64,000 bases of DNA. It comes from Megalonaias nervosa. Its lineage: Eukaryota > Mollusca > Bivalvia > Unionida > Unionidae. Under the pieces are notes generated by a model that was not told the DNA's origin, did not search any database, and was given only the letters and a program-made list of their open reading frames with translations. The translations under genes were made by a program, and so were the position numbers. This document shows positions 33,329 to 53,321 of the stretch, piece after piece; position 1 is the stretch's first letter; the number at the start of each line of letters is the position of its first letter. The stretch is from contig JAECUM010004426.1 in NCBI GenBank assembly GCA_016617855.1, positions 1 through 64,000 on the forward strand. The letters run 5' to 3'.

Positions 33329-33344
33329 GACCCTGAAAAGGGCC
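33329..33344 (-). terminator. Histone-type 3' stem-loop (left TIR edge)
   Basis: The transcript strand reads GGCCCTTTTCAGGGTC: 6-bp stem (one G-T pair), TTTC loop, ACCAAA on the 5' side and ACTCCA on the 3' side. CTCGAAAAGA begins about 11 bases later. It is 15 bases beyond the stop of the first accessory gene. Confidence 0.8.
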
Positions 33345-33358
33345 TTTGGTTTTTGCTT

Positions 33359-33945
33359 CTATTGTCTCCAGTTCTTCCACCAGCTTCTTAATTTTCCAAT
33401 GATTCCTTTCTTCGTCTTTTTCTTTTCTTCGTCTGGAATCCAGTCTGGATGTCCCATGTCTCTAAATTTTTTCTGTATTTTCATCCAGTTTATGTTCAGT
33501 GTTTCAAGGTCCTCTTTCTTTTTTGGTTTTCCTTCTCCTTTCTCTCTTTTGTCCAGGTGTCTTTGATTTTCTTTACCTCTTCTTTCATTACTTTTTTCAA
33601 CTTGTCTTCTGCTTTTATTAATTGTTGTAAACCCCACTGGACAAAAGACCACTCTGACCAATTAAATGTATCTTGCAAGAATCTCCTCACTTGGATGACA
33701 AGATCAAGGGCTTCCTTCAATGTCCCCACTCTTACATACTTAGGCTTGATGAATCCTCTTATTTTTTCCACCTCCTCTTCTATCATTCCGGCCACCTGAT
33801 CCCTGGCTACTTTCAGGCTAGTGACTTGACTGGTCACAAAGTCTTGGCTGCCTGGATAGCTCCATTCGTTTTCAATCCTTTCCACCACGTAGGCTGCATC
33901 CATCATCCAAAAATAACTGTGTCTTAATTCATTGAACAAATTCAT
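33359..33945 (-). pseudogene. Accessory helical protein A (frameshifted)
   Basis: The start is the first ATG (MNLFNELRHS) after a TATATAA/TCAGTCTGG promoter, ignoring an upstream open stretch that covers the promoter. The protein is almost entirely helical and charged, and two roughly 60-residue units within it look alike: one ends VAGMIEEEVEKIRGF, the other LKKVMKEEVKKIKDTW. Near 33515-33540, in a purine-rich AAAGAAAG stretch, the frame shifts. The second frame (ETLNINWMKIQKKFRDMGHP to WWKNWRQ) ends at 33359, just before the stem-loop. No known family. The same helical unit recurs in accessory protein C, which suggests a locally duplicated gene family. The role is unknown. Confidence 0.6.
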
Positions 33946-33976
33946 TTTTTCAAGAAGGTGTTGACTAGTCAATGCG

Positions 33977-34012
33977 GGTAGCCAGACTGACGAGCGTTCC
34001 GCGTTATATACG
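33977..34012 (-). promoter_or_regulatory. Promoter of accessory gene A (TATA + CAGT initiator)
   Basis: On the transcript strand TATATAA (34010-34004) is followed about 20 bases later by GTCAGTCTGGCTACC (about 33991-33977). The same pair with the same spacing precedes accessory gene B at 35121-35156. Confidence 0.7.
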
Positions 34013-34065
34013 TCAAGCACGGACGTGAACGAAAACATCCCTTACACTCACTTCACATATTATTT

Positions 34066-34316
34066 ACTATCCACACCAACGAACGAGAATGCATAAAACA
34101 TACCATACCTACTATCCACATCAACGAATGAGAAAGCATAAAACACACATCTATTTACTATCCACATCAACGAATGCGGATGCATAAAACACACACATTA
34201 TACTATCCACACCAACGGACGCGAATGCATAAAACACATCATACCTATTATCCACACCAACGTGCGCGAATGCATAAAACATACACACTATACTATCCAC
34301 ACCAACGGACGCGAAT

Positions 34317-34320
<4 letters not shown>
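34066..34320. repeat. 45-bp iteron array, six units
   Basis: Units starting ACTATCCACA(C/T)CAACG and containing CGCGAATGCATAAAACA begin at 34066, 34111, 34157, 34202, 34247 and 34292. The same core (TATCCACTGACACGAACGCGAAT) occurs in both TIRs, with a second partial unit at 53478-53513. Possible protein-binding iterons for replication or transcription. Confidence 0.85.

Positions 34321-34412
<92 letters not shown>
34319..34412. repeat. (CA)n microsatellite
   Basis: A long CA tract between two accessory cassettes. A second such tract is at 35332-35386. Confidence 0.97.
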
Positions 34413-34413
<1 letters not shown>

Positions 34414-34501
34414 AGTAAATGAGTGAGTGTTTATAGTCACACTACTCTACATTCACACAAATTGGCAAATTGAATAGTGTCTCTTTTCTAGAGATCTGGT
34501 T

Positions 34502-34517
34502 AGCCCTGAGAAGGGCT
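34502..34517 (-). terminator. Histone-type 3' stem-loop of accessory gene B
   Basis: The transcript strand reads AGCCCTTCTCAGGGCT, a perfect 6-bp stem with a 4-base loop. It is preceded by AAAAAC, followed by AACCA, with CTAGAAAAGAGA starting about 11 bases later. Confidence 0.82.
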
Positions 34518-34543
34518 GTTTTTCTAACTCCAAATACACCTGG

Positions 34544-35095
34544 TTAATGATGACATCTCCCAGGGCTGGCACCACACACGCTTCGCCGGCTCCAGTCCTG
34601 CTCCCAATTTATGTGTGTGGTTGGGAGCGCAGAGGGAGGTTGATTGGCTTCACTATCCCACTCCTCAGTTTGAGGGATAGTGAACACTTGTTCCCTCCTT
34701 CTTCTATTCCATACCCTGGGATGATGCTGATACCGAGGCTCCCACTCTTGTCTCTGTCTTTCCAATTCCTCCCATGCCTCCTCCTCCCAGGTTTCTCTCT
34801 GGGGGACAGCGGCTCTTGGTACTGGTGGCAGAGGCTTTGGCTGTCTTTGTTGTAGAAGTGGTAACTGTGGAGACGTTGGTGTCCTCACCTCAGGCTTGAC
34901 CTCACACAGAGGTCTTAGTATGAGGTGAGGCAGGACCTCTCGTCTCTTTTCCTTCTCCTCTTCTTTATTCTTATTTTCCTACTCTTCTTCCAACTGGGCT
35001 GTTTCTGCAATGGTCTCCATAACCAGCTCATCCAGGAGGCGCCTGGCATACTCCAGGTGCATTTGGAGTTCCAACAATTTACTTATTCTGCTCAT
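34544..35095 (-). pseudogene. Accessory protein B, proline-rich, in-frame amber
   Basis: The ATG at 35095 gives MSRISKLLELQMHLEYARRL, then an acidic helix. A TAG at 34979-34981 interrupts after 38 codons. The same frame reopens through a Lys/Glu segment, a Pro-rich stretch (PKPLPPVPRAAVPQ) and a Trp/Arg/Glu-rich tail to 34544. The N-terminal helix resembles the unit in accessory proteins A and C. The segment EVLPHLILRPLCEVKPEVR loosely recalls the ILVYGP(A/E)VR block of the right-end basic protein. The function is unknown. The amber codon may be real decay or, less likely, read through. Confidence 0.55.
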
Positions 35096-35120
35096 TCTTT
35101 ATAGTTGTCCCGTTGACGAT

Positions 35121-35156
35121 GGGTAGCCAGACTGACGATCGCGTCGATTTATATAC
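35121..35156 (-). promoter_or_regulatory. Promoter of accessory gene B
   Basis: TATATAAA (35155-35148) and GTCAGTCTGGCTACCC, about 20 bases apart on the transcript strand, are almost identical to the promoter of gene A. Confidence 0.7.
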
Positions 35157-35328
35157 TTGAAGCACGGACGTGAAGGTAAACATCCCCTAACACCAAAACT
35201 TACCATCAGATCAAACGCGCGGACCTAAAAGAAGCACTCACGTTGACTTTGTTTACTTACAAACACAGACATGCACGATTTGACGAGACAGAGAAAGTAA
35301 GTGCTTATAGACACACTTCTTTTTTTAA

Positions 35329-35331
<3 letters not shown>

Positions 35332-35386
<55 letters not shown>
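35332..35386. repeat. (CA)n microsatellite
   Basis: A CA tract between the promoter of gene B and the terminator of gene C, in the same relative place as 34319-34412. Confidence 0.97.
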
Positions 35387-35391
<5 letters not shown>

Positions 35392-35439
35392 TTTGTTTTG
35401 GAAATTTGAATTAGTATGTCCTTTCTAGAGTATTGGGGT

Positions 35440-35455
35440 AGCCCTGAAAATGGCT
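35440..35455 (-). terminator. Histone-type 3' stem-loop of accessory gene C
   Basis: The transcript strand reads AGCCATTTTCAGGGCT, a 6-bp stem with one mismatch and a TTTC loop. ACCCCA follows, with CTAGAAAGGA beginning about 11 bases later. The 5' flank is ACAAAAACC. Confidence 0.8.
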
Positions 35456-35489
35456 GGTTTTTGTTGACGGGAGTGATATCAATCTTTTT

Positions 35490-35855
35490 TTACAGTCTAA
35501 GATTGCGTCCCCGTCTGGCAGCAGGCGTTCCTATACGATACGGCCTGCTTCTGCGGAAAGAGAAGGAGAACTCTTTGGTGTCCACACGGCATTCGACAAA
35601 ACCTCTGTCTGGTTCTTGCTGCTGCTGTTGTTGTTGTTGTTGTTGTTCTCTCTGCCTCTGAAGTCTGTACTTCTCTGTCCATTCCTCTTGTTCTTTCTTG
35701 ATTTCCTCTCTGAAGACCTCTTCTATCAGGTCTTGGGCTATGGCTAACATCCTGACATTCTCTATCTCTTCAGGCTTAGGTATCAGGTTTAGCCTGACAC
35801 GATGTAAATTGACGTAAGCTTCGTTCAGCTTGGCTAGCCTGGAAGGCATCTTCAT
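35490..35855 (-). CDS. Accessory helical protein C, poly-Gln
   Basis: The start at 35855 (MKMPSRLAKLNEAYVNLHRV) is the first ATG after the CATATAAA/CCAGTCTGG promoter. Residues about 1-60 form a charged helical hairpin with AIAQDLIEEVFREEIKKEQE, matching the repeated unit of protein A. A run of about ten Gln follows (35616-35647), then a basic C-terminus (RRSRPYRIG...RRGRNLRL). The frame is intact. No known family. The Arg-rich tail would suit nucleic-acid binding, but this is inference. Confidence 0.65.
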   Translation of the reverse strand: MKMPSRLAKLNEAYVNLHRVRLNLIPKPEEIENVRMLAIAQDLIEEVFREEIKKEQEEWTEKYRLQRQREQQQQQQQQQQEPDRGFVECRVDTKEFSFSFRRSRPYRIGTPAARRGRNLRL

Positions 35856-35880
35856 AGGTTGACGAGTCAACCATGGATGA

Positions 35881-35911
35881 CCAGACTGGAGACCAACCCG
35901 CTTTATATGGT
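35881..35911 (-). promoter_or_regulatory. Promoter of accessory gene C
   Basis: CATATAAAG followed about 20 bases later by CCAGTCTGGTCATCC on the transcript strand, a variant of the promoters of genes A and B. Confidence 0.6.
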
Positions 35912-36075
35912 TCAAACGCGGAGCGATAGAAAACATCCCTACCCGGTTTTAGTGTCGGAAAGTTATGATAGCGAATGTCATGGTGAGGGATAGAGAGAAA
36001 GTCAAAGAACATATATTCACAGTGCTTTTTGAAAACAAACAACAGATACATTTTTTTTTTCAAAACACAACATTT

Positions 36076-36081
36076 TTTATT
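36076..36081 (-). terminator. AATAAA polyadenylation signal after the protease gene
   Basis: AATAAA on the minus strand 46 bases past the protease stop. It contrasts with the stem-loops that end the accessory genes. Confidence 0.55.
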
Positions 36082-36126
36082 CAACAAACAACTAACCACT
36101 AACAAGTAACAATAACATCAAACAAA

Positions 36127-36684
36127 TTATTTTTGACAAGGTTGACAACGTTGTGAAATCATGTGAGATTTCCACTGATGGAAGTCATGAGGCCGTTGAT
36201 GTACACTACGTTTCCTAGCTAAAGACAAAATATAGCCATAATTGTCACAAAAGCATCGATCTACTTTCTCATCGTTTCTAGAAGAGTGACGATCAAAATA
36301 AGTCACTAAATGTTCTAAAGGATATCCAAGACTGCGTTGATGAAGAAAATACACACAATATTGTCCACACACCATGGAATCTGTGCCTCGTAATTTCACA
36401 TTATTGAATCGTGTCGTCTGGGCATTTCTTCTCATAAAGTCAATGATGTCGTTTTCCAAAGGGGGTAATCCATACGAATCAAAATATTCCACACAATCCT
36501 CTTGAGGGAAGTAGACGGTAACCCAGTGAGTTCCTGGGAGATGATTGTCGTCCGTGTTGATGACATAAGCTTGATGGTCTTGAGGTTTGCGATGAGGTAG
36601 TTCATCTTTAGCGCACACGACAGGATTCCAAGAAGCAGTATACGAACTATTGTTCAAAAGGTAATAAAGTTCCCAGGTATCCAT
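36127..36684 (-). CDS. PRO: Adenain/Ulp1-type cysteine protease (PRO)
   Basis: A 185-residue protein, close to the roughly 200 residues of adenovirus protease and Polinton PRO. His53 lies in GTHWVTVYF, the acidic triad residue Asp69 in EYFDSYG, and Cys106 in VCGQYCVYF, in the order and spacing of adenain's His-Glu/Asp-Cys triad. In this family the enzyme cleaves capsid and core precursors during virion maturation. The frame is intact, unlike most neighbours. It sits at the 3' end of the minus-strand virion block, 20 bases downstream of the zinc-motif gene, and is followed by AATAAA. Confidence 0.93.
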   Translation of the reverse strand: MDTWELYYLLNNSSYTASWNPVVCAKDELPHRKPQDHQAYVINTDDNHLPGTHWVTVYFPQEDCVEYFDSYGLPPLENDIIDFMRRNAQTTRFNNVKLRGTDSMVCGQYCVYFLHQRSLGYPLEHLVTYFDRHSSRNDEKVDRCFCDNYGYILSLARKRSVHQRPHDFHQWKSHMISQRCQPCQK

Positions 36685-36703
36685 TTTTTGTTTTGTTGTT
36701 TTT

Positions 36704-37210
36704 TCACAGGTAATGATAAGTCATCAATTCAATTCTGACTTTTTGTTTGAAACGCTCTGTCAAGTAGCCGTTTCTTCGCCTTGTCTTCGCACTCTGGGCT
36801 AAGAGAGCTTCGATGCGATAAATCTCTAGAGTAGTCAATGGAGTGCAGGAATGATCACGCAAGCCTTTATACCACTCATGCAACACTGCTTCTTCTGAGA
36901 TGAGACTCCAAGCGTCGTCCAGATACTCGTCCAATTTTTCTTCTTGACTCATCATCATACATTTATCGTGTTGAATTTGACTGGGATGATCATTTTGACA
37001 TCCATAACAATCTTTCTTACTCAATTCCGTAATTTTATTCGCCAGGTGTTTGGCAAAACACGACACTAAATGTTGTTCTTGTTCTGGCCATCTGGACTTG
37101 ACCACTACCTCGTCCTCTTTGTCTTGGTCTTGGGGTTCTGTTTTCACGCTATCCTCCCATTCCATTTCCAAAGATTCTCTACCGTTCAAAGAGGGATAAG
37201 TGTCTTCCAT
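36704..37210 (-). CDS. Conserved-type protein with Cys/His cluster, unknown function
   Basis: 168 residues, intact frame. The first 50 residues are acidic and include VKTEPQ, which fits a SUMO-attachment consensus. Residues about 66-86 hold CYGCQNDHPSQIQHDKCM, a C-x2-C...H...H...C cluster that could bind zinc. I recall similar clusters in other Polinton-like and large DNA virus proteins but cannot verify a family. The C-terminal half is helical and basic. It lies between the capsid gene (6-base gap at 37211-37215) and the protease, so it may be a virion or assembly protein. This is inference only. Confidence 0.7.
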   Translation of the reverse strand: MEDTYPSLNGRESLEMEWEDSVKTEPQDQDKEDEVVVKSRWPEQEQHLVSCFAKHLANKITELSKKDCYGCQNDHPSQIQHDKCMMMSQEEKLDEYLDDAWSLISEEAVLHEWYKGLRDHSCTPLTTLEIYRIEALLAQSAKTRRRNGYLTERFKQKVRIELMTYHYL

Positions 37211-37215
37211 TGTTT

Positions 37216-38533
37216 CTAATAGTCTAGAATGACTTCTCTCAAACTGTTGATTTCTATGGTATTATCGAATTCGGCATACAAGATGATGTTAACCGTCTCG
37301 GTGAGAACTTCTGCAAACTGAAGTTCCACAGGCAATTGACTAGATTTTATGGGGTGGAAATGTCCCTCACCGCTGCCATGGTCTGGAGTGAAATCAAAGG
37401 TCCACAAAGTGTAACCTCCTACATAATCTTCGTACGAAATACCGTGACTGGTGTTGGTTCCTAGTTGCCCCGTAGCTTCGTACAGGGACAAGTACGATCT
37501 CAAGTAATTTTTCTGGGCAAAGTTAGGTTCGAAGGGTCTGGTACACAAGGTCTTGCCATCGCGACTGACTTCGATCTTGGACACTTTGTAGTGCTTAAAC
37601 TGGAAAGGATTTTGATCGTTGGCTCCATTGAGGGCTGCGTTGCTGATGATACCAACGATTAAACGTTTGGGTTACTGTCCTTGGAACAGATGATCTTCGA
37701 TCTTGGATCGGAGTCCAGCAGCAATGGTGAACGTTTTCACTTCTACGTGTCATATCGGATACTTGGCGGTCGATCTGCTCAGTGTGTGACTGATGTTGTC
37801 TCCCGCTTTAGGTAACACTTCCACGCGATGCACATAAAGTCTGGCTTCTTGGATGATGGTTTTGTACTCGATGGCATGAGCCATCAGATGGAAAGCGACA
37901 CTGCTGAGATTGAGTCTCAGGCGAATATCCACTCCGTTCAGCAAATACTTGTCTTGCAACCACATGTCCAAATGCAAACGATCCATCAGTTCTAAATTAC
38001 GAGCTTGCAGGATTTTCTTTCGACGGTCGTTAAAGCCCACATTGTGAGGATCGTCATCGGCTGTCGGGGCTGTGTCGTTAAACTTGTTCTCACCTGCGGT
38101 GTCAGGTTTCCAAACTACGCAAGCATCCAGATGAGTGTTCTTGGCCTCTTCCGTACGTCAAGAGATTTTCCAGGTACGCTCGGTAAGGGTAAGTATCCAT
38201 GCTACTGCTGACCAATTTGTTATTCAAGTACAAATCCACTTCGCTGAACAAGGAATGCATGAAATTGTTGACGGGAGCTACTCTAGCATCGTCTCCCGGA
38301 TTGGTGTTGTCTGTTTTGATCACTTTGAGTTTCAGATACAAGTAACTGCTATTCAGATCGATGTAATCTTCGGGTTGTCCTTTGATTTCACACTCGATGG
38401 GAGCCGAATCCGTCAAAGAGGAGACGGGATGAAATTCAACCCATTGGGATTCTTGCATTGTCATCATGGTGGGTGGCATGGCAAACAGATCCAGTTCCGC
38501 CTTGGAACAAGCGCAAGACTCTCGGTGCATCAT
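37216..38533 (-). pseudogene. MCP: Major capsid protein (double jelly-roll), broken
   Basis: The N-terminal segment has FHPVSSLTDSAPIECEIKG, DLNSSYLYLKLKVI, APVNNFMHSLFSEVDLYLN and YPYRAYLENLLTYG, the hallmark opening of Polinton double-jelly-roll capsid proteins. The middle (FNDRRKKIL... to VHRVEVLPKAG) and the C-terminal part (TRPFEPNFAQKNYLRSYLSL, YTLWTFDFTPD, ILYAEFDNTIEI) follow collinearly to 37216. Total span is about 439 codons. Lesions are a frameshift near 38150, a TGA at 37750-37752 and a TAA at 37672-37674; both stops fit single C-to-T changes on the coding strand. The family forms pseudo-hexameric capsomers. As read, no full-length capsid protein can be made. Confidence 0.92.
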
Positions 38534-38632
38534 TTTCTCTGATTTAATAATGAAAAACGTCTAACTCTCGGACAGTTTTTTGTTTTCTTAGTCTTTCTAG
38601 CTCTAGGGATGTGAAGTCCTCTGAAGGTGTTT

Positions 38633-38983
38633 TCATCGTCTTTTTCTGCCTTGTCTTTGCTGTGGAGTCAGGGAAGCAGGAATGTCTGACTCGGCATCGC
38701 CCAGGGCATTTATATGAGTTTCTCGCCGGAACAAAATCTCTTTACCCGTTTGAAGCAAGACATTTTTGCCTGCTCTCAAGAAAGCTTCTTTAGGGTTTTG
38801 TTTGTCAATGATGACATTTTGGAGAAATTCTATGCCGTGCGTCAACGCGGCATCTTTCAAGGCGTGCAATCCCTGTGTCACCATCGGTTTCAAAACGGGA
38901 GACACCGAACGAAAGGCTGATTTGAGCATATCTCCTAAACCATGTCCTCGTTGTTGAGCGACTCCTCGGTACACAGGATACAT
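38633..38983 (-). CDS. Small virion protein, pX/pVI-like
   Basis: The ATG at 38983 gives MYPVYRGVAQQRGHGLGDML. The (F/Y)RG...QRG.GLG opening followed by a long amphipathic, partly hydrophobic helix and a basic tail (QGRKRR) is the layout of small adenovirus-like virion proteins in adintoviruses. A GLG-type site could be a maturation cleavage point for the neighbouring protease (inference). It is 116 residues with an intact frame, starting 14 bases after the end of the minor capsid gene. Confidence 0.65.
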   Translation of the reverse strand: MYPVYRGVAQQRGHGLGDMLKSAFRSVSPVLKPMVTQGLHALKDAALTHGIEFLQNVIIDKQNPKEAFLRAGKNVLLQTGKEILFRRETHINALGDAESDIPASLTPQQRQGRKRR

Positions 38984-38996
38984 GACTAACAAAAGG

Positions 38997-39906
38997 TTAG
39001 AGTAATCGTTTTCGAAAATGGAGTTTCACTGTGACTTTCCCTTTGGTGAATGGAATATTTTGTCCCAGATCTCCTTTTATAGTAATGTTGACAGTGTCGA
39101 AATACGACTTACTGATGGGCAAATAGTGAGGATGTACAAATTCACGGTGAACGTGATAGGTGTTTCCACCTTCCTAGTCAGCGTTCGTGGCAGAATCCAC
39201 TTTGAAAGGAATGACACGCAGTAACGGTACGGAGGTGTGTCCCACCACGTTGTATTCCGCCACATCGGAGTACACAAAAATCAAGTTCAGTTCTTCGTTC
39301 ATTTCTACAGGGAATCGAAAATATTTCGCAAAATCAGAGTTACGGTCATGGCTGATATTTCGTTTGCAATCTTGATCAACTTAGGGTCTCCACCCAAAAT
39401 GTCATACAATTCAGGACAAAATGTAATGCCAATACTTTGCCCTCTGAAAATTTCATCATTAGGCGACGAGCTATTTTGTGGTAATCGATCATGACAATTT
39501 TTCTGGTTTTCTCCAAGGCTTTACCAAACACGTTATCGAACCTGTCAGCAATAGCGTTCACCAAATGTTGACCACTAAAATAATAGCCTGAGAGAATTTT
39601 CAACCGATAAGTGGTTCGTTTAGTTTTGGGAACTTGTGATTTCATAGAGTCAGCTGGACTGCTACGTTCATCCAAGTTTTCTTGCACTTGTTCGTCATCA
39701 ACTTCTACCGTAAAAGTGTTTTGATTTTCCATGATGTTTTTTATTTGCGTAGGGTGAATCATTTCCACTAAAGCCACATCCCAGCGGGCTTCGTGATCCA
39801 ATTGAATGGCCTGAGGTAATCTGGCCGTGTAACAGGACAAAGTGTTATTGGGAAACACCTCCATGGAACTATCACTGGGTAACGTTAAGTAAAATTGGTT
39901 GTTCAT
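38997..39906 (-). pseudogene. mCP: Minor capsid (penton-like, PY) protein, broken
   Basis: It opens NNQFYLTLPSDSSMEVFPNN and TARLPQAIQLDHEARWDVAL, with VEMIHPTQ next, the conserved start of Polinton PY proteins that form the pentameric vertices. The intact frame covers residues 1 to about 155. Beyond about 39446 the reading continues in a second frame (GITFCPELYDILGGDPK), then from about 39340 in a third (LNLIFVYSDVAEYNVVGHTS), with a TAG near 39175, to a TAA at 38997-38999. That makes two frameshifts and one nonsense codon. Its ATG overlaps the stop of the upstream membrane-protein gene as ATGA. Confidence 0.88.
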
Positions 39907-40307
39907 GATTCCACAGTTCTGGTGTCCGAGGAGTCACTGGAAGTCAGAGGAGTGTCTAAAAGAGGATGGTTAAGGTGACTGTTGAATGGGGGACTAACGT
40001 TGGACACAAGACTCCCGTTGTTGTTTCCGTTAGAGGAATATTTCAGAGACGCATTGGGAAGAGGGTAACCAATGCAACTGCTAAGTAAAATGGTCCACAA
40101 TTGTTTGTCTCCTTGTTGCAAACTCAAATTGGCAATGGCAGCACCGATGACACAATACACCACAAAGATTTGGCAGAAAAAGACGATTTGCGTTTTAGGC
40201 ACACGTTCTCCACACCACACCCACAAGAGTTGCTTTTGTGGATCTTGCAGAGAAGAACTGGGCGACGGAGTGGTCACTGCAGTAGCTGAGGCTGTGTTGA
40301 AGGGCAT
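39903..40307 (-). CDS. Predicted membrane protein, two transmembrane segments
   Basis: The ATG at 40307 (MPFNTASATAVTT) follows a Ser/Thr/Pro-rich start. Hydrophobic segments are TQIVFFCQIFVVYCVIGAAI and LWTILLSSCIGYPLPN, separated by a short polar loop. A Ser/Asn-rich tail of about 60 residues follows. This arrangement next to the minor capsid gene recurs in Polintons, as far as I recall, and may be a virion membrane or egress component (inference). The frame is intact. The start lies 5 bases after the integrase stop, and its own stop overlaps the next ATG (ATGA at 39903-39906). Confidence 0.7.
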   Translation of the reverse strand: MPFNTASATAVTTPSPSSSLQDPQKQLLWVWCGERVPKTQIVFFCQIFVVYCVIGAAIANLSLQQGDKQLWTILLSSCIGYPLPNASLKYSSNGNNNGSLVSNVSPPFNSHLNHPLLDTPLTSSDSSDTRTVES

Positions 40308-40312
40308 GATGG

Positions 40313-42076
40313 TCACTTCTTTTTATAGTCGATGAGTTGCGAAGCGTCGATCCAAGAGTCAAAACTGGAAGGATATCGTTTCCAACGTCCTTTGACTTCT
40401 TTGACACGTCGTTTTCCCACTTTTCGGGTTCTTCGATCGAGAATGCTTTCGATCTCGTACACGTCGTCTTCTTTTTTGGTCACACGTTGTAACTCGGGTA
40501 AGTAAAACGTTCCTTTTAACACTTCCCCGTTCATGTCTTCCAATTTATAGACGGGACGATGACGGCCACGCACACGTTCGGTGACATGAAACAATTCGTT
40601 GGTCCAGTTGGGTAAGTAACCTTTGTCGAAAGTGCGTTTGGTTTTGCCAATGCGTACCCAATCTCCTGATGCCAACACTCCACTTTTCTTGGGGACAGTC
40701 ACTGTCGGGGACGTACCAAACAGGCGCTCGAAGACGGTCACTTCGTTGTCGGGAGTCACTTCTTGGGGGGCACGTCCGATGCTCCGACGGTAAGTTTGGT
40801 TGTACGATTGGACGAGGTGTGGCAAGACGTCGATGTACTTGAGAGTGTGTTCATGCGTAAAATATTTCCACATGCGTTCTTTGAAGGTGCGTTGAAAACG
40901 TTACACGATGCTGCCTTTGGTTTTGGGATTCTCGGTGGTGAAAAAATGTATGTCACGTTTCTTCAATACTTTTTGGAAAGCTTGGTTCAGAAGTTCGGTG
41001 CCTTTGTCAGTTTGCCATCGAAGAGGGTGACGCCCACTTTGTTTCAACACCAGTTTGAGGGCTCGCACTAACTCACTGCTCGATTTGGAAGTCAATGGCA
41101 CGACCCAAGCAAATTTGGAAAAGACGTTGATGACACAAAACAAATATTTGTAACCACGATTGTAGGTGGCCAAATGAGAGACATCGGCTAAATCGACTTG
41201 TCATTGATGATCGATACCCTTTACTCGGGTGCGACTTCTGGAAAATTTTCGTCGAATGGGTTTGTGTAAGGTGTACGTGGCTTGTTCTTGTAACCAGCGT
41301 TGCACTTGAGGTAAACGAACACTTTTCAGTCGAGTTTTGGCAGCACGATAGAATTTCTGAACTCCTCCGTAACCTGCAGGATGGGATGGATCGTAGTAAA
41401 TGCTGGCTAACACATTCTCCATTTTTGAATAAGTGATCCACTCTTCACTGATGCTCCTCTTTTCTTCGTGTGGTATTTTCTTGGATTGTAATGCTTTACG
41501 TGTCCGACGGGCGATAGGTGTCGAGGAGGAAGATGTCTGAACTGGGGTAATTAGTTCTTGTTTCACTTCTGGTTTCCCTTCTTTCTTTTTCCCTTCTGAG
41601 GAAGAAGGGGTAGCCATCATCTTTTTGATCCAACCAATTCTGGATGTAGGTGGTGTTTTTAACTTGCGTACGTTTTCTGGTGGAGTTTGAAGCTCTTCTT
41701 CTTTTTCTGTCTTGATCACTGGGACTAGTGGTGGTGGACTTTCTGTCTCGATTACTGGGGCTAATGTTGGTGGTGGCGGTGATGGACTTTTCATCAAGGC
41801 CTTAAAATCTTTCAGAGTGCGTAGAGCTGTTTCGTCTAAAGCTTTCTGGTGAAAGAGTTGCAGTCGTTGCAACAATTGACCGTACCGTTGAGATTTTTCT
41901 GTTTCTGACAAATCGCTGCGATCCATCAATGATTGCAATTCGTGTTGTAACTGGGACATCTCGTTCAAATGAGGATTGGGAGGTAAGTGGGGGGTTCGTT
42001 GTTCTTGCCAACGATGGTATTCCATCCATCGTTTGTAAGGCACTAAGCCAGTTATTGTTTTTCCATCGGATTTCAA
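40313..42076 (-). pseudogene. INT: Integrase (rve) with N-terminal extension and chromodomain-like tail, two nonsense codons
   Basis: A single frame runs the whole length, interrupted only by TGA at 41201-41203 and TAA at 40901-40903. Residues about 1-100 are a helical segment (QRYGQLLQRLQLFHQKALDE) found beside integrases in other Polintons. A Pro/Ser/Lys linker follows, then the zinc-like N-terminal domain (YYDPSHPAGYGGVQKFYRAA, TLHKPIRRKF). The core has the first catalytic Asp in the QVDLADV block just after the TGA and the second in RWQTDKGTEL. The Glu of the DDE triad falls at the TAA after KTKGSIV. The tail (DDVYEIESILDRR... DSWIDASQL) is chromodomain-like. No ATG precedes the conserved start, and TTG stands at 42074-42076. 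A GATAAAAG box lies at about 42112-42120. Confidence 0.9.
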
Positions 42077-42138
42077 GGATCACGTCTGAGATCTTTTGAC
42101 CCCAAAAGTCCCTTTTATCTTCTTGGAACTTTTTATCT

Positions 42139-44778: not shown

Positions 44779-44841
44779 AGTAGTGTAAGAAATGTTACTT
44801 TTGACACGAAGACAGACAAGACAAGAGGTTTTATACTTTTT

Positions 44842-45691: not shown

Positions 45692-45703
45692 GGTAGTCCG
45701 TTT

Positions 45704-46009
45704 TTATACCCTCTTTGGTGTAAGGCAATAAGTGTACTTTTTGAACATCCTCGATTTTATTTTAGTACCGTACCAAAAAAGTTTAGTCACTAACTCACAC
45801 ACCACACGTCGCACAGAAGTTTCCTCTTGAACTAGAAAGAATTGTTCTTGTAAAGATTTGTTGTAATCCTCTAACTCGTCCGTTGGAATTCGGTGTATTA
45901 GGATTACCTTGTAAGTTGAATGAGTGGCATCCAAAAATTTATGAATTTCACGCGATTCATCAATGTCTGACGACTGGAATACTTTCATCAGAATCAGTCC
46001 TCTTAGCAT
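45704..46009 (-). CDS. Hypothetical protein, unknown
   Basis: A 101-residue frame with protein-like composition (STYKVILIHRIPTDELEDYN, FFLVQEETSVRRVVCELVTK). It overlaps the end of the F-box-like gene at 45960-46223 in another frame, so it may be that gene's continuation after a frameshift, or a separate product with its own start. No motif recognised. Confidence 0.4.
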   Translation of the reverse strand: MLRGLILMKVFQSSDIDESREIHKFLDATHSTYKVILIHRIPTDELEDYNKSLQEQFFLVQEETSVRRVVCELVTKLFWYGTKIKSRMFKKYTYCLTPKRV

Positions 46010-46223
46010 TCAGGTACCAGTGGTTCAAACATCGGTGACGTAACGGATGTAATTGTTCTTTGCGTTTCACTTGTATTTTGACGAACTCGCGGTAAATGCG
46101 TTCTCTCAGCTCCACAGGCAAACCACGAATGTTCTCTTGTAAAGTATCCATGACCATGTCAGTCAAACACTTCTCCTTGAGCGAAAGTAACGGACAAAGT
46201 GAATAATTTCTTGCCACTGCCAT
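45960..46223 (-). CDS. F-box-like small protein, copy 1
   Basis: 87 residues. Residues about 32-55 read IRGLPVELRERIYREFV, an LP.EL...IY core like the start of an F-box, followed by KRKEQLHPL. It shares this arrangement with the gene at 46307-46552. Viral F-box proteins recruit SCF ubiquitin ligases, but the similarity here is short and the assignment is tentative. It overlaps the next frame at its 3' end. Confidence 0.45.
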   Translation of the reverse strand: MAVARNYSLCPLLSLKEKCLTDMVMDTLQENIRGLPVELRERIYREFVKIQVKRKEQLHPLRHRCLNHWYLNAKRTDSDESIPVVRH

Positions 46224-46306
46224 TCCAGGACACGGTCAAAAATGTCAATAAAATCTTCAAATGTAAATGGTCTAAAGCGGAATATTAGGAAGAACGCACC
46301 CTTGAT

Positions 46307-46552
46307 CTAGAGAAATCTGACTTGTTTGTTGACTTTTGTCAATTTCCTCTTGTGAATTTCTCGACACAAAAGTTCCTCAGTCACTAATTGAGATTTGGCT
46401 CTGGTAAGTCCCAACCAAATATCCTTGTAGATCTTCTCTTGCAATTCGTTTGGTAATGTTTGAAGATTATTTTTCCAATGGGGTTTAAATACTTGTCTAG
46501 GGGTTGTCCAACGTTTGAATCCTAGCAACATAGCTGGTTTCTTACACGACAT
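46307..46552 (-). CDS. F-box-like small protein, copy 2
   Basis: 81 residues with LQTLPNELQEKIYKDIWLGL followed by RAKSQL, aligning with copy 1 (GLPVELRERIYREF...KRKEQL). The N-terminus is basic (MSCKKPAMLLGFKRW). It starts 13 bases after the shifted-frame end of the BIR gene. A diverged tandem duplicate of the previous gene seems likely. Confidence 0.45.
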   Translation of the reverse strand: MSCKKPAMLLGFKRWTTPRQVFKPHWKNNLQTLPNELQEKIYKDIWLGLTRAKSQLVTEELLCREIHKRKLTKVNKQVRFL

Positions 46553-46564
46553 GGTATGCCCACT

Positions 46565-47201
46565 TCAATGACGAGGTCCCACTAAAGGTAGGTAGTGACA
46601 ATCTCGAGACCATTGAGCATGTTCCAGGTAAGCACAATCTTTCTTCTGGGCCTTTCTTCTCCCACTCGTGAAGTGACACACCGCAACTGAAGCACTTGAC
46701 TTTATCACCTTCGCCGATGTAGATAAATCCGGCTCTAGCTAATTCTTCGGGGGTAGGTACTCCCAGATATTTTGGCCATTTTCCTCGGAAGGTTTGGATC
46801 CGACTTTCAAAATCGCAGTATTCAGGCAAACGCACAGGGAACGAATATTCGTCTTTCACAGGTTCATTTCGATGAGGGTATGGTGAAATATGTAGGAGTG
46901 TGCTCAGATTTGCATGACATCCGTAGGGTGGTAGCCGCATGGTTTCATAATGATGACATCCACTATGAAAACCAGTAAAGTGAAAAGGTGTACGATAACG
47001 AGTGGCGTCACTTTCGCATCCGTCAGGTTTGACACGCACAGCATCACTTTCCATGGTAGGTATGGTAGTAGTTATAGCAAAGTTCCCATGATGTGGCACT
47101 GAATCGCTAAGGTCATAGCGTACGGCATCCCTGCCATCGCAAGGTACAGCATCGCACTCGAGTTTGCTCTTGCTTGATACTTGCTGTTTGAAAGGATTCA
47201 T
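46565..47201 (-). pseudogene. BIR-domain (IAP-like) protein, frameshifted inside the BIR
   Basis: The ATG at 47201 (MNPFKQQVSSKSKLECDAVP) follows a CATATAAAAAGGG box (about 47267-47257). The first about 130 residues hold loosely repeated D(A/S)(V/T)R(Y/V) units of unknown role. A single type II-like BIR domain follows: DFESRIQTF, then ELARAGFIYIGEGDKVKCFSCG with the first two zinc Cys. Near 46640 an extra A in GAAGAAAG shifts the frame before the zinc His and last Cys, which lie in the second frame ending at 46565-46567. IAP proteins block caspases or signal through ubiquitin; no RING domain is present. It probably served as a host-derived anti-apoptotic gene. Confidence 0.82.
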
Positions 47202-47233
47202 CTTTCTCGCCTGGCAATGGTAGTGACAATGAA

Positions 47234-50200
47234 CTATCGGTCTTGGACGTTGTCCCTTTTTATATGCTGACCAATACTGGCGTGACCGTACGGTAAAGTG
47301 AAGTGATTGGGAAGCCGTACTCGCTTCTGGTACACGATTTGATAGACTTTTTTTAAGGGCCGGCTGACGATTTGGTGTGTGTGTGTGTGTGTAAACGTAC
47401 AATCTTGTGCGGTTCGTTGGTGGTCACTTTAAAATTTCCATCCTGTCCAGACTGCAAGGCTTTTTTCAAGACGCCAGAGTTCACCAGTCGACTGGTGCTA
47501 TAATTGAGAGTCAATCCTTTCACTTTACACTCCGTGTGTTCTTCTCCTTGTGGGTCTCGGTCTTCGTAGCCGTAATTTTTGGGACCGCCACTTGCAAAAC
47601 TTAGAATCTTGTCGTCGGGATGCTCGTCCGTCCAGACTCCTAAACGGTCTCCTTCGATGACAGGGTGAGGTTGACCCAGGCGATCGATGTAGATGCAACT
47701 GTCCATGTCAAAATACAGCACACGATCTCCTAACAGTTCTAAAGCTTCGTACAGTTTTAAGCGAGCATGGGCTGTCACGTAAGCTGCAATGATGACATTT
47801 CCAAATTCGTCGGCTTCTACAAAAATCCAGTTCTTCTTCGTAATTGACAAAGATCAAGTCCTCACGAAGGACGTCTACGTGTTTCATGTATTTAGTTTTG
47901 TCGTGAATCATCTGGAAGTAGCGGGAAGGTTCTGTCAAATACTCCGTCTTGGGAAAACACAGTCGTTGTGCCATTTTGCCCCACAAGCATTTTAACATCA
48001 CTTTGGCAAACGATCGCCTTCCTTAGTTTTTCTCCACGTGGTCTAAAGTGATCCCTTCCTGCTCCCAGTATTTGTCTTTGAATTTCTTTTGGTCTTCGGG
48101 AGTCCGGCAGCAGGAAGGATAGCCACTGGCTTCTTGTTTCAGTTTCAAAAAAGCATTCACGTAGTCTGCGAAAATGCCTTTCTGAGTCTCGTCGCGCTTG
48201 TGGTATTTTTGTGTCTTGGGAAAGTGGTAAATTTCGTACACTTCTAACAGTTGGTATCCCAGGTCCAGAGCTTTGAATAATTCCACGCTAACCCACGTTC
48301 TTGTGAAGGTGAGTTCTTCCTGAGTGTGCTGACAATGTTGGCCTTGGTTGCACGTTTCGGCACAAGTACGGCACAAGGTAAATATCAGTTTTCCTTGGCA
48401 ATGGTGAGGTAAAACGGAATGGTACAAGTCCGTGGGAGGCAAAACTTTACATTTGATCAATCCTTCGTATTGACGAATGTTGTCCAGGTCGATGTGTTCC
48501 GTCAGCATTTGCGGGTGCCCTGCGGGAAAGTGACAGTATTTGCACACGTACGGATACAGCGAACACACGTCCAAGTATTTGATTTCTTCTCCTTTCTCCT
48601 CGTCGGCTTGGTACATCAAACAAGTGGCATTCGTCCGTCCTCCGTACAAACTGTCTCGTGGGTTCAGTGGGTCCACCAGCTTGTAACTTTCCACGATACG
48701 CTTAAACTCGGGATCGGTTTTCAATCGGTGATCGTACTCGTGTTCCCACATTTCTACCACTTGGTATCCTTGCTCTTCTAACTTCAGTCGCCGCTGACAA
48801 GTGGTCTGGTACAAGTCTTCCATGGTTCGTTGTAAAAACTGATTTTTAGTGTTGCGTTGAGGGTAACAGATGGGGCATCCGTGAAATAAGCAGCCGTTAA
48901 ACTCGTACACGATCTGGGGGTTTTCTAAGTCCCAACCATCCACCGAATACGTTCCGATGGTCTTTTCGCCTCCTTCGTTGCGAGCATGTTGGATCCATTT
49001 GTCTTCCTTGTCGCACAGGTAATTAACCAGCGTAGGGCTTTGACCGAGTATTGACGTTTGACAAAGTTCGTCGTTTGAGGACTGATGACAGCTAGGGTGT
49101 TTTCGGGTATGAATCGTTGACGGTACACTAAGGAACACGCTTTGGCAATGGTGCAGGCTTCTTTCAAAGGATCGATTCCTCCGTGTTCCATGAACAGTTC
49201 TCGAAATTTTCTACAGCAACGCCGTAGAATGTCCACGTCGGAACGACAATACTTTAACATTTCTTCCTGAAAGTCGAAAGGGTTAGAGGTGTGAGTCTGG
49301 TACCATGCGTAGAAAGCTTCTCGTTGTTCGGTACGCATGTTGTCGGGGTCGTAGTAGTGAGCCTCGGGCAAATGGGGTAGAACGGCATGTTGATTGGCTT
49401 CGGTATTGAAAAAGTGTGGAAAATAGCCTTCGGCCATCTCTGTCATTCCAAATGTTTTAGGCATGCGACTCAAAGGTATGGCCAAGTAACTCATCGAATC
49501 TTTAAACTGCACTTGACCCACTTGCATGGAAATGATTTTGGCTACGTTCAAAGTCACTTTAGGACGTTCGGTACTTTGTTCCGTATAGTATCTGAGGAGA
49601 AATTGCCCATCGTATCCCGAAAAATTGTGAGCCATCACCGTGGCATAGCGATGACAATCTCCGTAACGTTCGATGTCTTCTTGGCTCCACGTCTCGTCAA
49701 TAGGGTCTAAGATCCATTGGGCAAAATCGGCCAGCGTGTTCGGTCCACGAAAGATTTTTTCATGTCCTCCAGGAATCTTGCTACAGTGAGGGCAATGAGT
49801 AAAGATAGGCTCTTGGATGCACTTCTCACATGCTCAATGAGCCACGCAGAAATTAGGAATGTGAATGTCAGTCTTTTGCATGCATTCGAAATCGAAAAAG
49901 ATGAAACTGCTTTTCTTCTGGTCATTATCTTCTTCTTTATGTTTGGATTGGTATTTTTGAATGTAGCATTGGTGTTCCAAGTCCACGACTTGGCGACAAA
50001 TGTGACATCGCTTCTTTCCTGAACAGACGTGCGCCTTGGCATTATTGGTACGTATGCCTTGCCCACAAGTAGGGCACAATCTCAGGAGCTGACAAGCACT
50101 TTTCTGAACCTTGCGTCTTTAAATGCTGTTGGTAACAGAAAGGGCTGAGAAACGTGCGCTGACAAGCTGGGCAATGCACTCGTTCTTGTCCTTGGTCAAG

Positions 50201-51319
50201 ACAGGGCTTAGAGGCTAAACATCCCTCACATTTCGATCCACAATACTTGTGTTGCTCTCGATTGTTATAGCCATAGTCACATTTTTCACAGTAATAACTG
50301 TATGACAGGAATGCAGTGATACTGGTCATGGCATCAAAATATTCATCGTGATGATAAACTTGAATGTATTTTTCGTCTTTGAAATTTTTGCCTCGAAACA
50401 ACAGAGGTCCGCTCACTTCTTGAGGGTGCACTTTCAAGGGGTAGCGTGGAGCCAAGACGTCTTGCAACTTTTGCATTTCAGGAATGCCGCAGGGTGTGTC
50501 TTTGGAAAGGCCATCTTGCTGTAACAGGAGTTCTGCTTCTCTTCGTTGTTTGGCTCGGCTAGATTTTTTAATAGTTTGCCAGGCTCTTTTCTATTCTGCC
50601 GTGTTGTTCTTATCGGCATACGTTCGTCCCAGCACGATGGCACGGGCTAAACACATCTTATCTTGAGGGTTGTTAATTCGGACGAGGCTCTTTTTGGTGA
50701 TGCGAAGGTTGTCCACCAATAACACTTTTTTGCCATGTCCTGTCCCTTGGGGAAGAGAAACGTGTGTCATAAACAATGTCGCTTTTCCGTCATTGATGTG
50801 AAACTTGTCGTTGGATTGCTGCACGTGTTGAATCTTGTCGATGATTTTGGAAGGTGTCAATTCTGATCGACTGCTAAACTCGATCCAAACGGGTGACTTC
50901 AAACTGTCGTTATGAATGGAAAGTCTCAAGCGATCGTCTTCTTTGGCTTCACATTGCTGTTTCAGTGCGGTTAACAAAGAATCCCACACATCAGTGATGA
51001 ACCCCTCTGCTTTCTCCAACGGTACGTCGGACTTGAAATCTTTAAACTTCACCGCGTACGTGTAGGCCGAAGTTCTAAATTTTCTGGAGGAGCGTTTGTC
51101 CGTCTCTCGAATGTGGTAGTACTTTTCAGGGTTTACTGGTGGTGATGGGCTTTGACTGGGTGTAGACTCTCTGGGCCTAGATTCTGGCTCACTCATCTCA
51201 TCTTCAAAATCGCTGGCATGAATTTGAGCCAAGACTTCAGCTACTGTGCGAGGCGATAAATCACGTTTCTGCCTCTTACTTTCTTCTCCTTTCTTTACGA
51301 AATGATGCGATCGTTTCAT
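47234..51319 (-). pseudogene. POLB: Protein-primed family B DNA polymerase, multiply broken
   Basis: About 1,360 codons. An N-terminal domain (DRLRLSIHNDSLKSPVWIEF) is followed by a Cys/His-rich region (CEKCDYGYNN, CPACQRTFLS, CHICRQ). Exonuclease motifs are FFDFE (about 49899-49885), HNFSGYD (about 49629) and YCRSDVDIL (about 49251). A GCLFHGC block precedes motif A DVCSLYPYV (about 48571), motif B (KVMLKCLWGK) and motif C YFDMDS (about 47715). The C-terminus is KKVYQIVYQKRV. Lesions: TAG 50591-50593, frameshift near 50090, TGA 49834-49836, frameshift near 49040, TAA 48023-48025, frameshift near 47845, and frameshift at a CA repeat near 47380. The gene replicates the linear element by protein priming in this family. 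The C-terminus overlaps the BIR promoter. Confidence 0.93.
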
Positions 51320-51363
51320 CTTGACTGCAAAAAGTCAAATGACTACATTTGAAACGCCATGGA

Positions 51364-51402
51364 CCCCTATATATCCATGTTAGGCTTAGTGCATATATAA
51401 AG
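51364..51402. promoter_or_regulatory. Divergent TATA boxes between polymerase and zinc-knuckle genes
   Basis: A minus-strand GGATATATAGGGG (51377-51365) serves the polymerase gene. A plus-strand GCATATATAAAGGG (51391-51404) serves the zinc-knuckle gene, followed by CTCTCAGTATTC and GCTCTCAGTCCG initiator-like sequences at about 51416-51444. Confidence 0.65.
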
Positions 51403-51454
51403 GGCTGGTGCCTTCCCTCTCAGTATTCATTTCGCTCTCAGTCCGACCGGCACG

Positions 51455-51808
51455 ATGGAAGAACCCACACAAATCGAACTTCTGATTAGAGCTTTGCGAG
51501 GTGTCATAAGAAAGTTTTCTTCAGACAAACCAACGGACTACTTTCCCTCCTTTCGAGATAAAAGTCAAGATACTTGCTATATCTGTCAGAAGAAAGAGCA
51601 TTGGGCTACAGAATGTCCAGATCGTCAAAAAAGCAAGATCAGTGTCAAAAAAGACAAAAGTCAGGATGCCCGTTATCATGGTCAAGGGAAAGGACATTGG
51701 TCTTCAGACTGCCCTAAGAAACAATCGGATCAGGAGGAGGAAGAAGAAGAGGTAACCTCGGCAAAAGAAGAATTCCGACACGTTCAGAAAGAGAAGATAG
51801 GAAAGTAA
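51455..51808 (+). CDS. CCHC zinc-knuckle protein
   Basis: 117 residues. Residues 41-55 form a canonical knuckle, CYICQKKEHWATECP (C-x2-C-x4-H-x4-C). Residues about 72-86, RYHGQGKGHWSSDCP, are a second knuckle that lost both first cysteines by single base changes (CGT and GGT where TGT is expected). Between them is a duplicated RDKSQD/KDKSQD linker. The C-terminus is Glu-rich. Knuckles of this type bind single-stranded nucleic acid in retroviral nucleocapsids and some cellular proteins. No typical Polinton core function matches. A decayed relative in the older relic is split by this element's insertion. Confidence 0.75.
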   Translation: MEEPTQIELLIRALRGVIRKFSSDKPTDYFPSFRDKSQDTCYICQKKEHWATECPDRQKSKISVKKDKSQDARYHGQGKGHWSSDCPKKQSDQEEEEEEVTSAKEEFRHVQKEKIGK

Positions 51809-52145
51809 AGAAGACGAGAAAAAAGTGAGGAAGAAGAGGAGGAGGAAAAAACTGTAAAGTGAAGAAATTAAAGAAACAGAAAGAGTGAAAGAAAACAAGA
51901 AACAGAAGAAGTCTATGATCTTTTGAAAAAAGTGTTGTGTTGTGTTGTGTTGTGACATTGAATTGTAAATATTTGTACCAGAATAGACCAGACTCAGAAA
52001 CGTAAGTGTCTCCTGGTTTTGATTTTTTAGAATAAGGGCCTACACTCATGCACTCACAACACGTCTATTATGGGGGAAATTAGGGATTTTGAGTTTTAAT
52101 TGATTTTGGCAAAATGAATACTATCTCTTTTCGAAAGAAATGAGT
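51809..52145. other. 3' region of the zinc-knuckle gene
   Basis: Purine-rich (AAGAAGAGGAGGAGG) then GTGTT repeats (51932-51952). I found no plus-strand histone-type stem-loop here, unlike the other accessory genes; a weak AATAAGG at 52031 is the only polyadenylation-like signal. Confidence 0.4.
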
Positions 52146-52161
52146 GGCCCTAAAAAGGACC
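52146..52161 (-). terminator. Histone-type 3' stem-loop of the coiled-coil gene
   Basis: The transcript strand reads GGTCCTTTTTAGGGCC, a 6-bp stem with one T-G pair and a TTTT loop. The 5' flank is CACAAC and ACTCAT follows, with TTCGAAAAGAGA starting about 11 bases later. Confidence 0.8.
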
Positions 52162-52341
52162 GTTGTGTGTTTGTTTTTTCTTAGAACAAAAACAAACTCA
52201 GGAACGAGAAGCAATCCGCTTTAACTGCCGTAAGCCTTTGCCACGGCCAAGGCCTACTTCTGGACTTGCTCCTGTCAATGATTTAGTAGAAATCACTAGG
52301 GGTGGTATCTCCGGTGTAGTGACAGGGTTCGACTGTTTGGC

Positions 52342-52812
52342 TCAGGAAGGTCTTTTTCTCTTGGGTCGTAATAAAGAAGTCTGATACATTTGTTTCAGAC
52401 TTCTTAACTCGGCCAAAATGTCCAAGAGTACCGTTACCGTTTGACTTTCACTGTTCTCCTTCTCTCCTAGACTTTGTTTCTTCTCTGCTGCTTCTTCCTG
52501 TCGTTTCCTTCTTGTCTCTTCTTCTCGCTGTTGCTGTTCAAGGAGAAATGCTTGTTCTGCTTCTTTCTGCTGTTGTAAAAATTTCTCCAATTCTTCTTTC
52601 TGTCTCTGTTTAAAATCGTCGACATGTGGTAAAGAAGGTGCTGGTACCGGAACAAATTCTTGTGAAGAAGGGAGAAAATCTGCTAAATCCCAATTGAAAT
52701 CAACCTCTTCTGGTAGTAGTCCTGTGTTGACTTTGGTAGCCACAGCTATGCCATCGCTTCTCGTCTCCAAAGCCGGTTCACTCCAATTCATTGTCTTCTT
52801 AGTTTCCGTCAT
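52342..52812 (-). CDS. Coiled-coil accessory protein
   Basis: 156 residues, intact. Residues 1-60 are acidic with a Pro/Val stretch (EFVPVPAPSLPHVDDF). Residues about 66-110 are a Glu/Gln/Arg-rich coiled coil (RQKEELEKFLQQQKEAEQAF). Residues about 125-150 (LLDILAELRSLKQMYQTSL) are a conserved amphipathic helix, also found in the relic copy at 31.8 kb, followed by a RPKRKR nuclear-localisation-like end. Upstream are TGACGTCA (52878-52885) and CTATATAGG (52872-52864), then GCAGTGAATC as initiator. The role is unknown. Conservation of the helix and tail between two elements argues for selection. Confidence 0.7.
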   Translation of the reverse strand: MTETKKTMNWSEPALETRSDGIAVATKVNTGLLPEEVDFNWDLADFLPSSQEFVPVPAPSLPHVDDFKQRQKEELEKFLQQQKEAEQAFLLEQQQREEETRRKRQEEAAEKKQSLGEKENSESQTVTVLLDILAELRSLKQMYQTSLLRPKRKRPS

Positions 52813-53044
52813 GTTTCACAAAACAATGTCGCATCGATTCACTGCACACAGACGCTAGCGCACCTATATAGGGAATGTGACGTCACAGGTAGCTCTCTTC
52901 GAATTGGAAGACAGACTCCGCGAAGTGACTGAATTTTGTAACGCGTGTTGGGATTGGTGAACAATTTCAATCCGTTTCGATCCGGTCTTCCACTATAAAT
53001 AAACGCGGTTCACTCCATTCCCTTCACCTGTTCTCGTCACAAAG
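52813..53044. promoter_or_regulatory. Divergent promoter region, coiled-coil and basic-protein genes
   Basis: For the minus-strand gene: TGACGTCA and TATATAG at 52862-52885. For the plus-strand gene: ACTATAAATAAACGC at 52991-53005 with the ATG at 53045. Confidence 0.6.
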
Positions 53045-53263
53045 ATGTGGACCAACGTTGAATCGTCTACTTTCATATCGTCGTTGTTTTTCCGTACGGA
53101 CTTACCCATGTATGTGAGATCGTCATGGAGAATCGTTAGGATCACCGAGACAAGCGTTTGGAAAAGAAGGACCTATGTGGAAAGACAATGCTGTCTGAAG
53201 CGAGTTCTGATTTATGGACCAGAGGTTAGACAAAGTTTGAGGAAGAGAAGAAGACCTATGTAA
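53045..53263 (+). CDS. Small Arg-rich protein at the right end
   Basis: 72 residues with a Ser/Phe-rich start and a basic C-terminal half (RVLIYGPEVRQSLRKRRRPM). The block (I/V)LIYGPEVR.SLR.RRRP is conserved in the relic copy at 31166-31272. TATAAATA lies 40-50 bases upstream, and a perfect histone-type stem-loop follows 43 bases after the stop, inside the TIR edge. The gene is transcribed outward, as is gene A at the other end. Basic composition suggests nucleic-acid binding (inference). No known family. Confidence 0.68.
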   Translation: MWTNVESSTFISSLFFRTDLPMYVRSSWRIVRITETSVWKRRTYVERQCCLKRVLIYGPEVRQSLRKRRRPM

Positions 53264-53305
53264 TGCCCTCTATGTTAACGGAATGGTGTTAACATAACAA
53301 ACAAC

Positions 53306-53321
53306 GGCCCTTTTCAGGGCC
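53306..53321 (+). terminator. Histone-type 3' stem-loop (right TIR edge), consensus-perfect
   Basis: GGCCCTTTTCAGGGCC fits the metazoan histone stem-loop consensus GGYYCTTTTCAGRRCC. It is preceded by AACAAACAAC and followed by ACTCCA, with CTCGAAAAGA about 11 bases later. Confidence 0.88.

Follow-up and report, generated by a model that had tools for sequence, protein, structure and literature searches.

Histone-type stem-loops and downstream purine elements follow the accessory genes of a Polinton in the bivalve Megalonaias nervosa

The window analyzed here, a 64,000-nucleotide stretch of contig JAECUM010004426.1 from Megalonaias nervosa, contained a Polinton, a high-copy, virus-like transposon, at approximately 32,980-53,790. 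The element possessed the long terminal inverted repeats of Polintons/Mavericks (left, 33009-33354; right, 53296-53758, of which 53369-53501 was unaligned), aligned in three arms. A core gene for an adenain-like protease (36127-36684, minus strand) matched Peptidase_C5 weakly (E = 0.029, below the Pfam cut-off) and had 380 relatives, with PF00770 on several among the matches listed. A chromo domain was matched at 40313-40873 (Pfam), presumably of the type found at Polinton integrase ends; it was the sole integrase-related match, the catalytic core lying outside the search. A BIR gene was also present, and we take inverted repeats, adenain-like protease, integrase-end chromo domain and BIR gene together to be traits of the Polinton/Maverick/adintovirus family. 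By eye, open reading frames lay where a protein-primed DNA polymerase B, a packaging ATPase and a double jelly-roll capsid protein are expected; the one piece of the candidate ATPase tried had no significant Pfam match.

Five accessory genes occupied the ends of the element. On the left, all on the minus strand, were acc180 (33496-34038, listed as 180 aa, its real start probably internal and below a TATA box), acc2 (34544-34978, a 3' open piece, the frame above being broken by a stop in the window copy) and acc3 (35490-35936, its real start probably some 28 aa internal; most of the relatives found span about 80% of the reading frame or less). On the right were acc156 (52342-52812, minus strand), for which the genome gave 150 scored matches, itself counted, and acc72 (53045-53263, plus strand), which was small, basic by eye and retained in many copies. 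A single E2F-type site was found, at 48522 on the minus strand and away from the accessory genes, and the eight reading frames tested held no LXCXE motif.

Each accessory gene was followed on its sense strand by one 16-mer histone-type stem-loop. All five hairpins of the original prediction were present at their positions and strands; it had set them 15-180 bases past the stops, and the measured range was 26-180 nt. These lay at 33329-33344 on the minus strand (acc180, 151 nt past the stop), 34502-34517 on the minus strand (acc2, 26 nt), 35440-35455 on the minus strand (acc3, 34 nt), 52146-52161 on the minus strand (acc156, 180 nt) and 53306-53321 on the plus strand (acc72, 42 nt). A stem of six base pairs had been claimed for each, which held at four sites (one pair being G.U at acc180, and the first pair A-T with a TCTC loop at acc2; the acc156 loop was TTTT), but the acc3 stem in the window had five pairs and an A.G mismatch, its counterpart in a copy elsewhere in the genome (L052) having six. 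Scanning with the Rfam family RF00032 (Histone3, gathering score 34), the covariance-model check proposed with the prediction, placed one of the five sites above gathering (acc72, 34.7 bits at 53301-53347) and three below it with E < 0.01: acc180 (29.8 bits at 33303-33349, E = 6e-5), acc156 (28.9 bits at 52121-52166, E = 1.2e-4) and acc2 (24.3 bits at 34478-34522, E = 0.007). The acc3 site was not significant (16.1 bits at 35416-35460, E = 2.1). Because the acc180 and acc72 stem-loops both lie inside the terminal inverted repeat, they are not mutually independent. The Rfam E-values together with diverged copies in the same genome make a chance origin of the stem-loops very unlikely.

The predicted purine element, GAAA(A/G)GA, was found downstream of all five stems. 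It read GAAAAGA and began 13 nt past the stem at acc180 (33303-33328, minus strand, with the 3' flank), acc2 (34478-34501, minus), acc156 (52121-52145, minus) and acc72 (53322-53347, plus), and read GAAAGGA at +14 at acc3 (35416-35439, minus). The 5' flanks of the hairpins were A/C-rich, and the 3' flanks began with AC at four sites, as anticipated for every site, but with AA at 34502; those of some accessory gene classes looked related to one another. In the window copy no core gene carried the hairpin and element together: between roughly 36,100 and 51,500 there was no Histone3 match, and two weak matches in a loose scan both lacked the purine element. Just beyond the protease stop there was instead an AATAAA (36076, minus strand), with no stem-loop and element beside it. 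Among the accessory ends, only that of acc156 had an AATAAA or ATTAAA hexamer in the 200 nt that follow the stem, an ATTAAA at 52095 on the minus strand, about 45 nt beyond it, through which polyadenylation is possible at this end.

Searching the same genome with RF00032 gave 75 scored matches, 66 of them above the cut-off and the best at 44.1 bits, a lower bound since the 34.7-bit site of the window and a 37.8-bit host H2A site were absent from the 75; in the control, 1 of 14 well-known genomes had a match, which was below the cut-off. Accessory proteins of the window type were encoded at 44 of the 48 loci checked, and core histones at none of the 48 by tblastn, so genome scans for histone stem-loops may be dominated by transposon copies. 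As these 48 loci were picked by RF00032 score, hairpin conservation among them is biased. All 57 stem-loops near accessory gene ends were on the sense strand and none was antisense. Counting the window's own rows, and with proteins approximately 43-95% identical to those of the window, the distance from stop to stem was 161-216 nt in 25 of 31 acc156 matches, 139-154 nt in 10 of 13 acc180 matches, 26-30 nt in 7 of 9 acc2 matches and 30-35 nt in all 3 acc3 matches (one with an atypical loop), while for acc72 the count was 27 of 29 matches, 25 of these at 28-50 nt. We also evaluated 20 of 150 copies that had been found by protein, chosen without regard to the motif. A hairpin of at least five pairs was kept in 18 of the 20, and in the 19 copies that could be anchored the pair cells were paired in 95.6% of cases, compared with 15-47% when the frame was slid and 19-61% when the partner alone was slid. 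Two pairs had changed compensatorily on both sides in register, and none in the slid frames. The sampled copies were young, with a majority base of 90-97% in segments surrounding the site; among them the hairpin was not more conserved than its flanks.

The host itself carried histone hairpins at 3 of 11 histone-fold matches, one H2A (37.8 bits, above gathering) and two H2B genes (30.7 and 24.5 bits); the other eight lacked one, and several of these may be variants or fragments. The 16-mer at 53306 was identical in a host H2A and an H2B, and the host H2A had GAAAAGAT at a position like that of the accessory purine element. Similarity between accessory and host histone flanks was uneven (z from -0.1 to 5.6) and came partly from the shared element itself. 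RNA-binding exons of a host SLBP scored 67.6 and 39.5 bits, and one was matched to solved SLBP chains. For U7 snRNA, RF00066 gave no match anywhere, controls included (65 of 657,865 first-look candidates scored). One sequence pattern gave 4 matches against 3 in a reversed control and a second gave 1170 (the first 100 places being listed) against 1509; none of eight candidates looked U7-like by eye, with only weak A+T-rich folds after an Sm-like site.

The accessory ends thus resemble those of replication-dependent histone mRNAs in their 16-nt hairpin, A/C-rich 5' flank and purine element at 13-14 nt, but unlike them sit on non-histone genes of a virus-like transposon. The histone-type architecture put forward at the outset was supported by the match to the ends of the host H2A and two H2B genes, by its recurrence in five gene classes, by the uniform sense orientation and two compensatory changes, and by the presence of SLBP in the host. 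From these sequence comparisons we estimate a probability of about 80% that Polinton accessory genes use 3' ends of the replication-dependent histone type, their mRNAs most likely being processed by SLBP and U7, lacking poly(A) and favored in S phase. Host SLBP would bind the accessory hairpin and the U7 snRNP would pair with the purine element, and the pre-mRNA would be cleaved a few bases downstream of the stem; the resulting messages, without poly(A), would be translated via SLBP and be stable mainly during S phase. The core genes have no hairpin plus element in the window copy and would be polyadenylated, so that the transposon would express its genes in two groups set apart by the type of 3' end. 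With somewhat less confidence, we favor the view that a virus-like transposon lineage captured the histone 3'-end pathway for an entire class of its genes as a two-class switch, in which accessory proteins, probably early and regulatory, would be made from non-polyadenylated, SLBP-dependent mRNAs in cells replicating their DNA, and capsid and replication genes would be expressed from polyadenylated mRNAs. The cassette of hairpin and element may derive from a host histone gene and have then spread by duplication of gene ends.

A single capture is plausible because the 3' flanks of some classes and of host histones look related, and this uneven relatedness, along with the absence of extra conservation at the site in young copies, would also fit hairpins that were acquired in one copying event from a host histone gene and persist as functionless passengers, with accessory mRNAs polyadenylated further downstream. 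We consider this improbable: hairpin and element recur at class-typical distances in five classes whose proteins fall to about 45% identity, compensatory changes occur in register only, orientation is strictly sense, and at four of the five ends neither AATAAA nor ATTAAA occurs in the first 200 nt beyond the stem. More improbable still is a role at the DNA level, such as recognition of the ends or protein-primed replication within the terminal repeats, where two of the five hairpins lie; the other three are outside the repeats, all five follow gene ends in the sense orientation, the same holding for all 57 sites elsewhere, and such a role requires neither the purine element nor the match to host histones. 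Dual histone-type and polyadenylated 3' ends have been reported for some histone variants, and accessory genes with histone-type ends in S phase and polyadenylated ends otherwise would overlap with our main explanation. The ATTAAA beyond the acc156 stem is compatible with such an arrangement, which is nonetheless rather unlikely given that no such signal lies within the same distance at the remaining four ends.

To our knowledge, histone-type 3' ends have been thought nearly private to histone genes. If our preferred reading of histone-type accessory ends is true, the many copies of this virus-like transposon would represent a new route by which a DNA element couples its gene expression to S phase of the host, and they would demonstrate that processing by SLBP and U7 is open to capture. 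In the literature searched, we found no description of histone-type 3' ends for Polintons/Mavericks or adintoviruses; in a term search of PMC11071296, 'stem-loop' did not occur and 'histone' occurred twice, both times about histone-like proteins. In IMG/VR, single-protein searches with the protease and a capsid piece returned no relatives, and alignment recovered one distant related locus. Protease alignment to prokaryote assemblies gave five partial Polinton-like contigs, which are perhaps animal DNA in MAGs. The six partial contigs, counting the IMG/VR locus, had no Histone3 match, which counts against the histone-type reading, and a looser scan of them gave one weak match, without the element, in the IMG/VR locus. 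The exact hairpin pattern was absent from IMG/VR and from prokaryote genomes; the pattern of hairpin plus element matched once in IMG/VR, inside a coding reading frame of a contig that appeared phage-like by eye, and was dismissed as chance. The same Rfam family has been annotated in a virus: PMC7786107 gives a coronavirus Histone3 annotation of 14.7 bits within the nsp3 coding region, whereas the Polinton sites reach 34.7 bits in the window and 44.1 bits elsewhere, lie at gene ends and are present in many copies.

A Polinton/Maverick element spanned ~32,980-53,790 of the window, with terminal inverted repeats in three arms (89-97% complementary), an adenain-like protease, a chromo domain at the expected integrase end, a BIR (inhibitor of apoptosis) domain (46542-47201, minus strand; 56.7 bits) and small accessory genes at both ends; none of the four accessory genes scanned had a significant Pfam match. 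All five predicted stem-loops were located, at 33329, 34502, 35440 and 52146 on the minus strand and 53306 on the plus strand, following accessory genes acc180, acc2, acc3, acc156 and acc72, respectively. Their proposed identity as histone 3' stem-loops held for four in a scan with the Rfam Histone3 model (RF00032), which exceeded its curated cut-off at 53301-53347 and gave E 6e-5 to 0.007 at three more; the acc3 stem-loop, with one mismatch, was not significant alone. The U7-like downstream element was likewise present, GAAA(A/G)GA beginning 13 or 14 nt beyond each of the five stems. This copy of the element was decayed: acc2 (34544-35100, minus strand) was broken by an in-frame stop, and a putative capsid gene (37216-38560, minus strand) was in shifted pieces.

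Across the window's genome (2.19 Gb, 54,709 contigs), RF00032 gave at least 75 scored matches, at least 66 of them above cut-off (top 44.1 bits), a lower bound, since neither the window's site at 53306 nor a host H2A site is listed. We fetched 48 of the 75 loci and tested encoded proteins by tblastn: none matched a core histone, and 44 coded for accessory proteins like those of the element in the window (~43-95% identical). Most histone hairpins among those checked in the genome are therefore the Polinton's. In L042, one of the four remaining loci, an ORF with a similar leader lay immediately 5' of the hairpin. Distance from stop codon to hairpin was class-specific for each accessory gene across the 48 loci, and with the window counted in, the hairpin stood at its class distance in 25/31 acc156, 10/13 acc180, 7/9 acc2 and 3/3 acc3 matches and followed 27/29 acc72 matches (25 of these at 28-50 nt); some of the misses were short matches or fell close to where the fetched sequence stopped. 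The loci held 65 sites with hairpin and element; 57 were near an accessory gene end, all on the gene's own strand, and eight had no such end nearby. Searching for the 3' arm and element with no condition on pairing returned 80 sites, 72 of which formed at least five of six pairs, and among 28 distinct 16-mers 79.8% of cells were paired, against a shuffle mean of 73.3% (0/1000 shuffles as high).

Because these loci had been selected by hairpin score, a second sample was drawn by protein. Searching the same genome with acc156 gave 13,655 first-look candidates and at least 150 scored copies at 88-100% identity, mostly without internal stops; the acc156-bearing family is very abundant and, from these sequences, probably recently active. 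Among 20 of the 150 scored copies, taken at steps along the list, 18 kept a hairpin of five or six pairs, with exact GAAAAGA 13 nt past the stem in 14 and one substitution there in four; of the other two, one lacked the 5' arm and kept the element, and one had unrelated sequence past the gene. All six pairs formed in 16 of the 19 copies anchorable on the 3' side. The first pair was G-C in 15 anchored copies; one copy had A-T and another T-A, making two with a change on both sides, compared with none in frames slid by 1-3 bases. Paired cells reached 95.6% in register, against 15-47% with the frame slid 1-3 bases and 19-61% with only the partner slid. Counter to a functional reading, the 20-copy sample is young and the hairpin was no more conserved than its flanks.

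In histone mRNA processing the hairpin is bound by SLBP, the downstream element pairs with the U7 snRNP and cleavage falls some five bases beyond the stem. The host genome had an SLBP gene (two RNA-binding domain matches, one also matching solved SLBP chains); weak searches found no U7 snRNA in it. Among 11 host histone-fold matches checked, a histone hairpin lay 3' of one H2A and two H2B genes (37.8, 30.7 and 24.5 bits) and none was found at the other eight. The 16-mer at 53306 was identical to that of the host H2A and one H2B. Likeness between host and element 3' flanks was uneven (z -0.1 to 5.6 against shuffles; H2A 2.2 to 5.6), in part because the purine element is shared. The simplest reading is that accessory pre-mRNAs enter the histone 3'-end pathway; the mRNAs would then, as the original prediction had it, carry no poly(A) tail and be favoured during S phase. 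The element may thus carry two mRNA classes, since neither Histone3 nor a looser scan found hairpin plus element at the core genes of the window's copy, AATAAA lay ~50 nt beyond the protease gene's stop, and AATAAA or ATTAAA occurred within 200 nt past the stem at one of five accessory ends (acc156).

Evidence for histone-type ends on Polinton genes came from the DNA of one genome, read as that of an animal on the strength of its SLBP and histone genes. A literature search thin on subscription papers found none linking Polintons with SLBP, and none in which histone stem-loops, transposable elements and U7 came together. By title, none of three works naming histone, stem-loop and Polinton concerned such gene ends, and the titles and abstract starts searched revealed no viral or transposon genes with histone-type ends. 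A coronavirus paper places Histone3 at 14.7 bits within a coding region (PMC7786107). Almost no relatives turned up in the IMG/VR and prokaryote collections, so a lack of hits there carries little weight.

Promoter control is probably common to the three left-end accessory genes (33945-35930, minus strand), since by eye they share an upstream block of GGATGTTT, a TATA box and CAGTCTGG. By eye, the N-terminal stretch of acc156 (52342-52812, minus strand) was acidic and aromatic, a long region was rich in Gln/Glu and the tail was basic, a layout that might be that of a transcription activator; a zinc-knuckle (CCHC) protein gene (51455-51808, plus strand) faced it and was present in many of the copies fetched. 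Left of the Polinton, 30400-32480 appeared to be the decayed end of another, with an ORF tail that by eye was acc156-like and, at 32442 on the plus strand, a degraded hairpin of histone type (18.8 bits, E 0.2).
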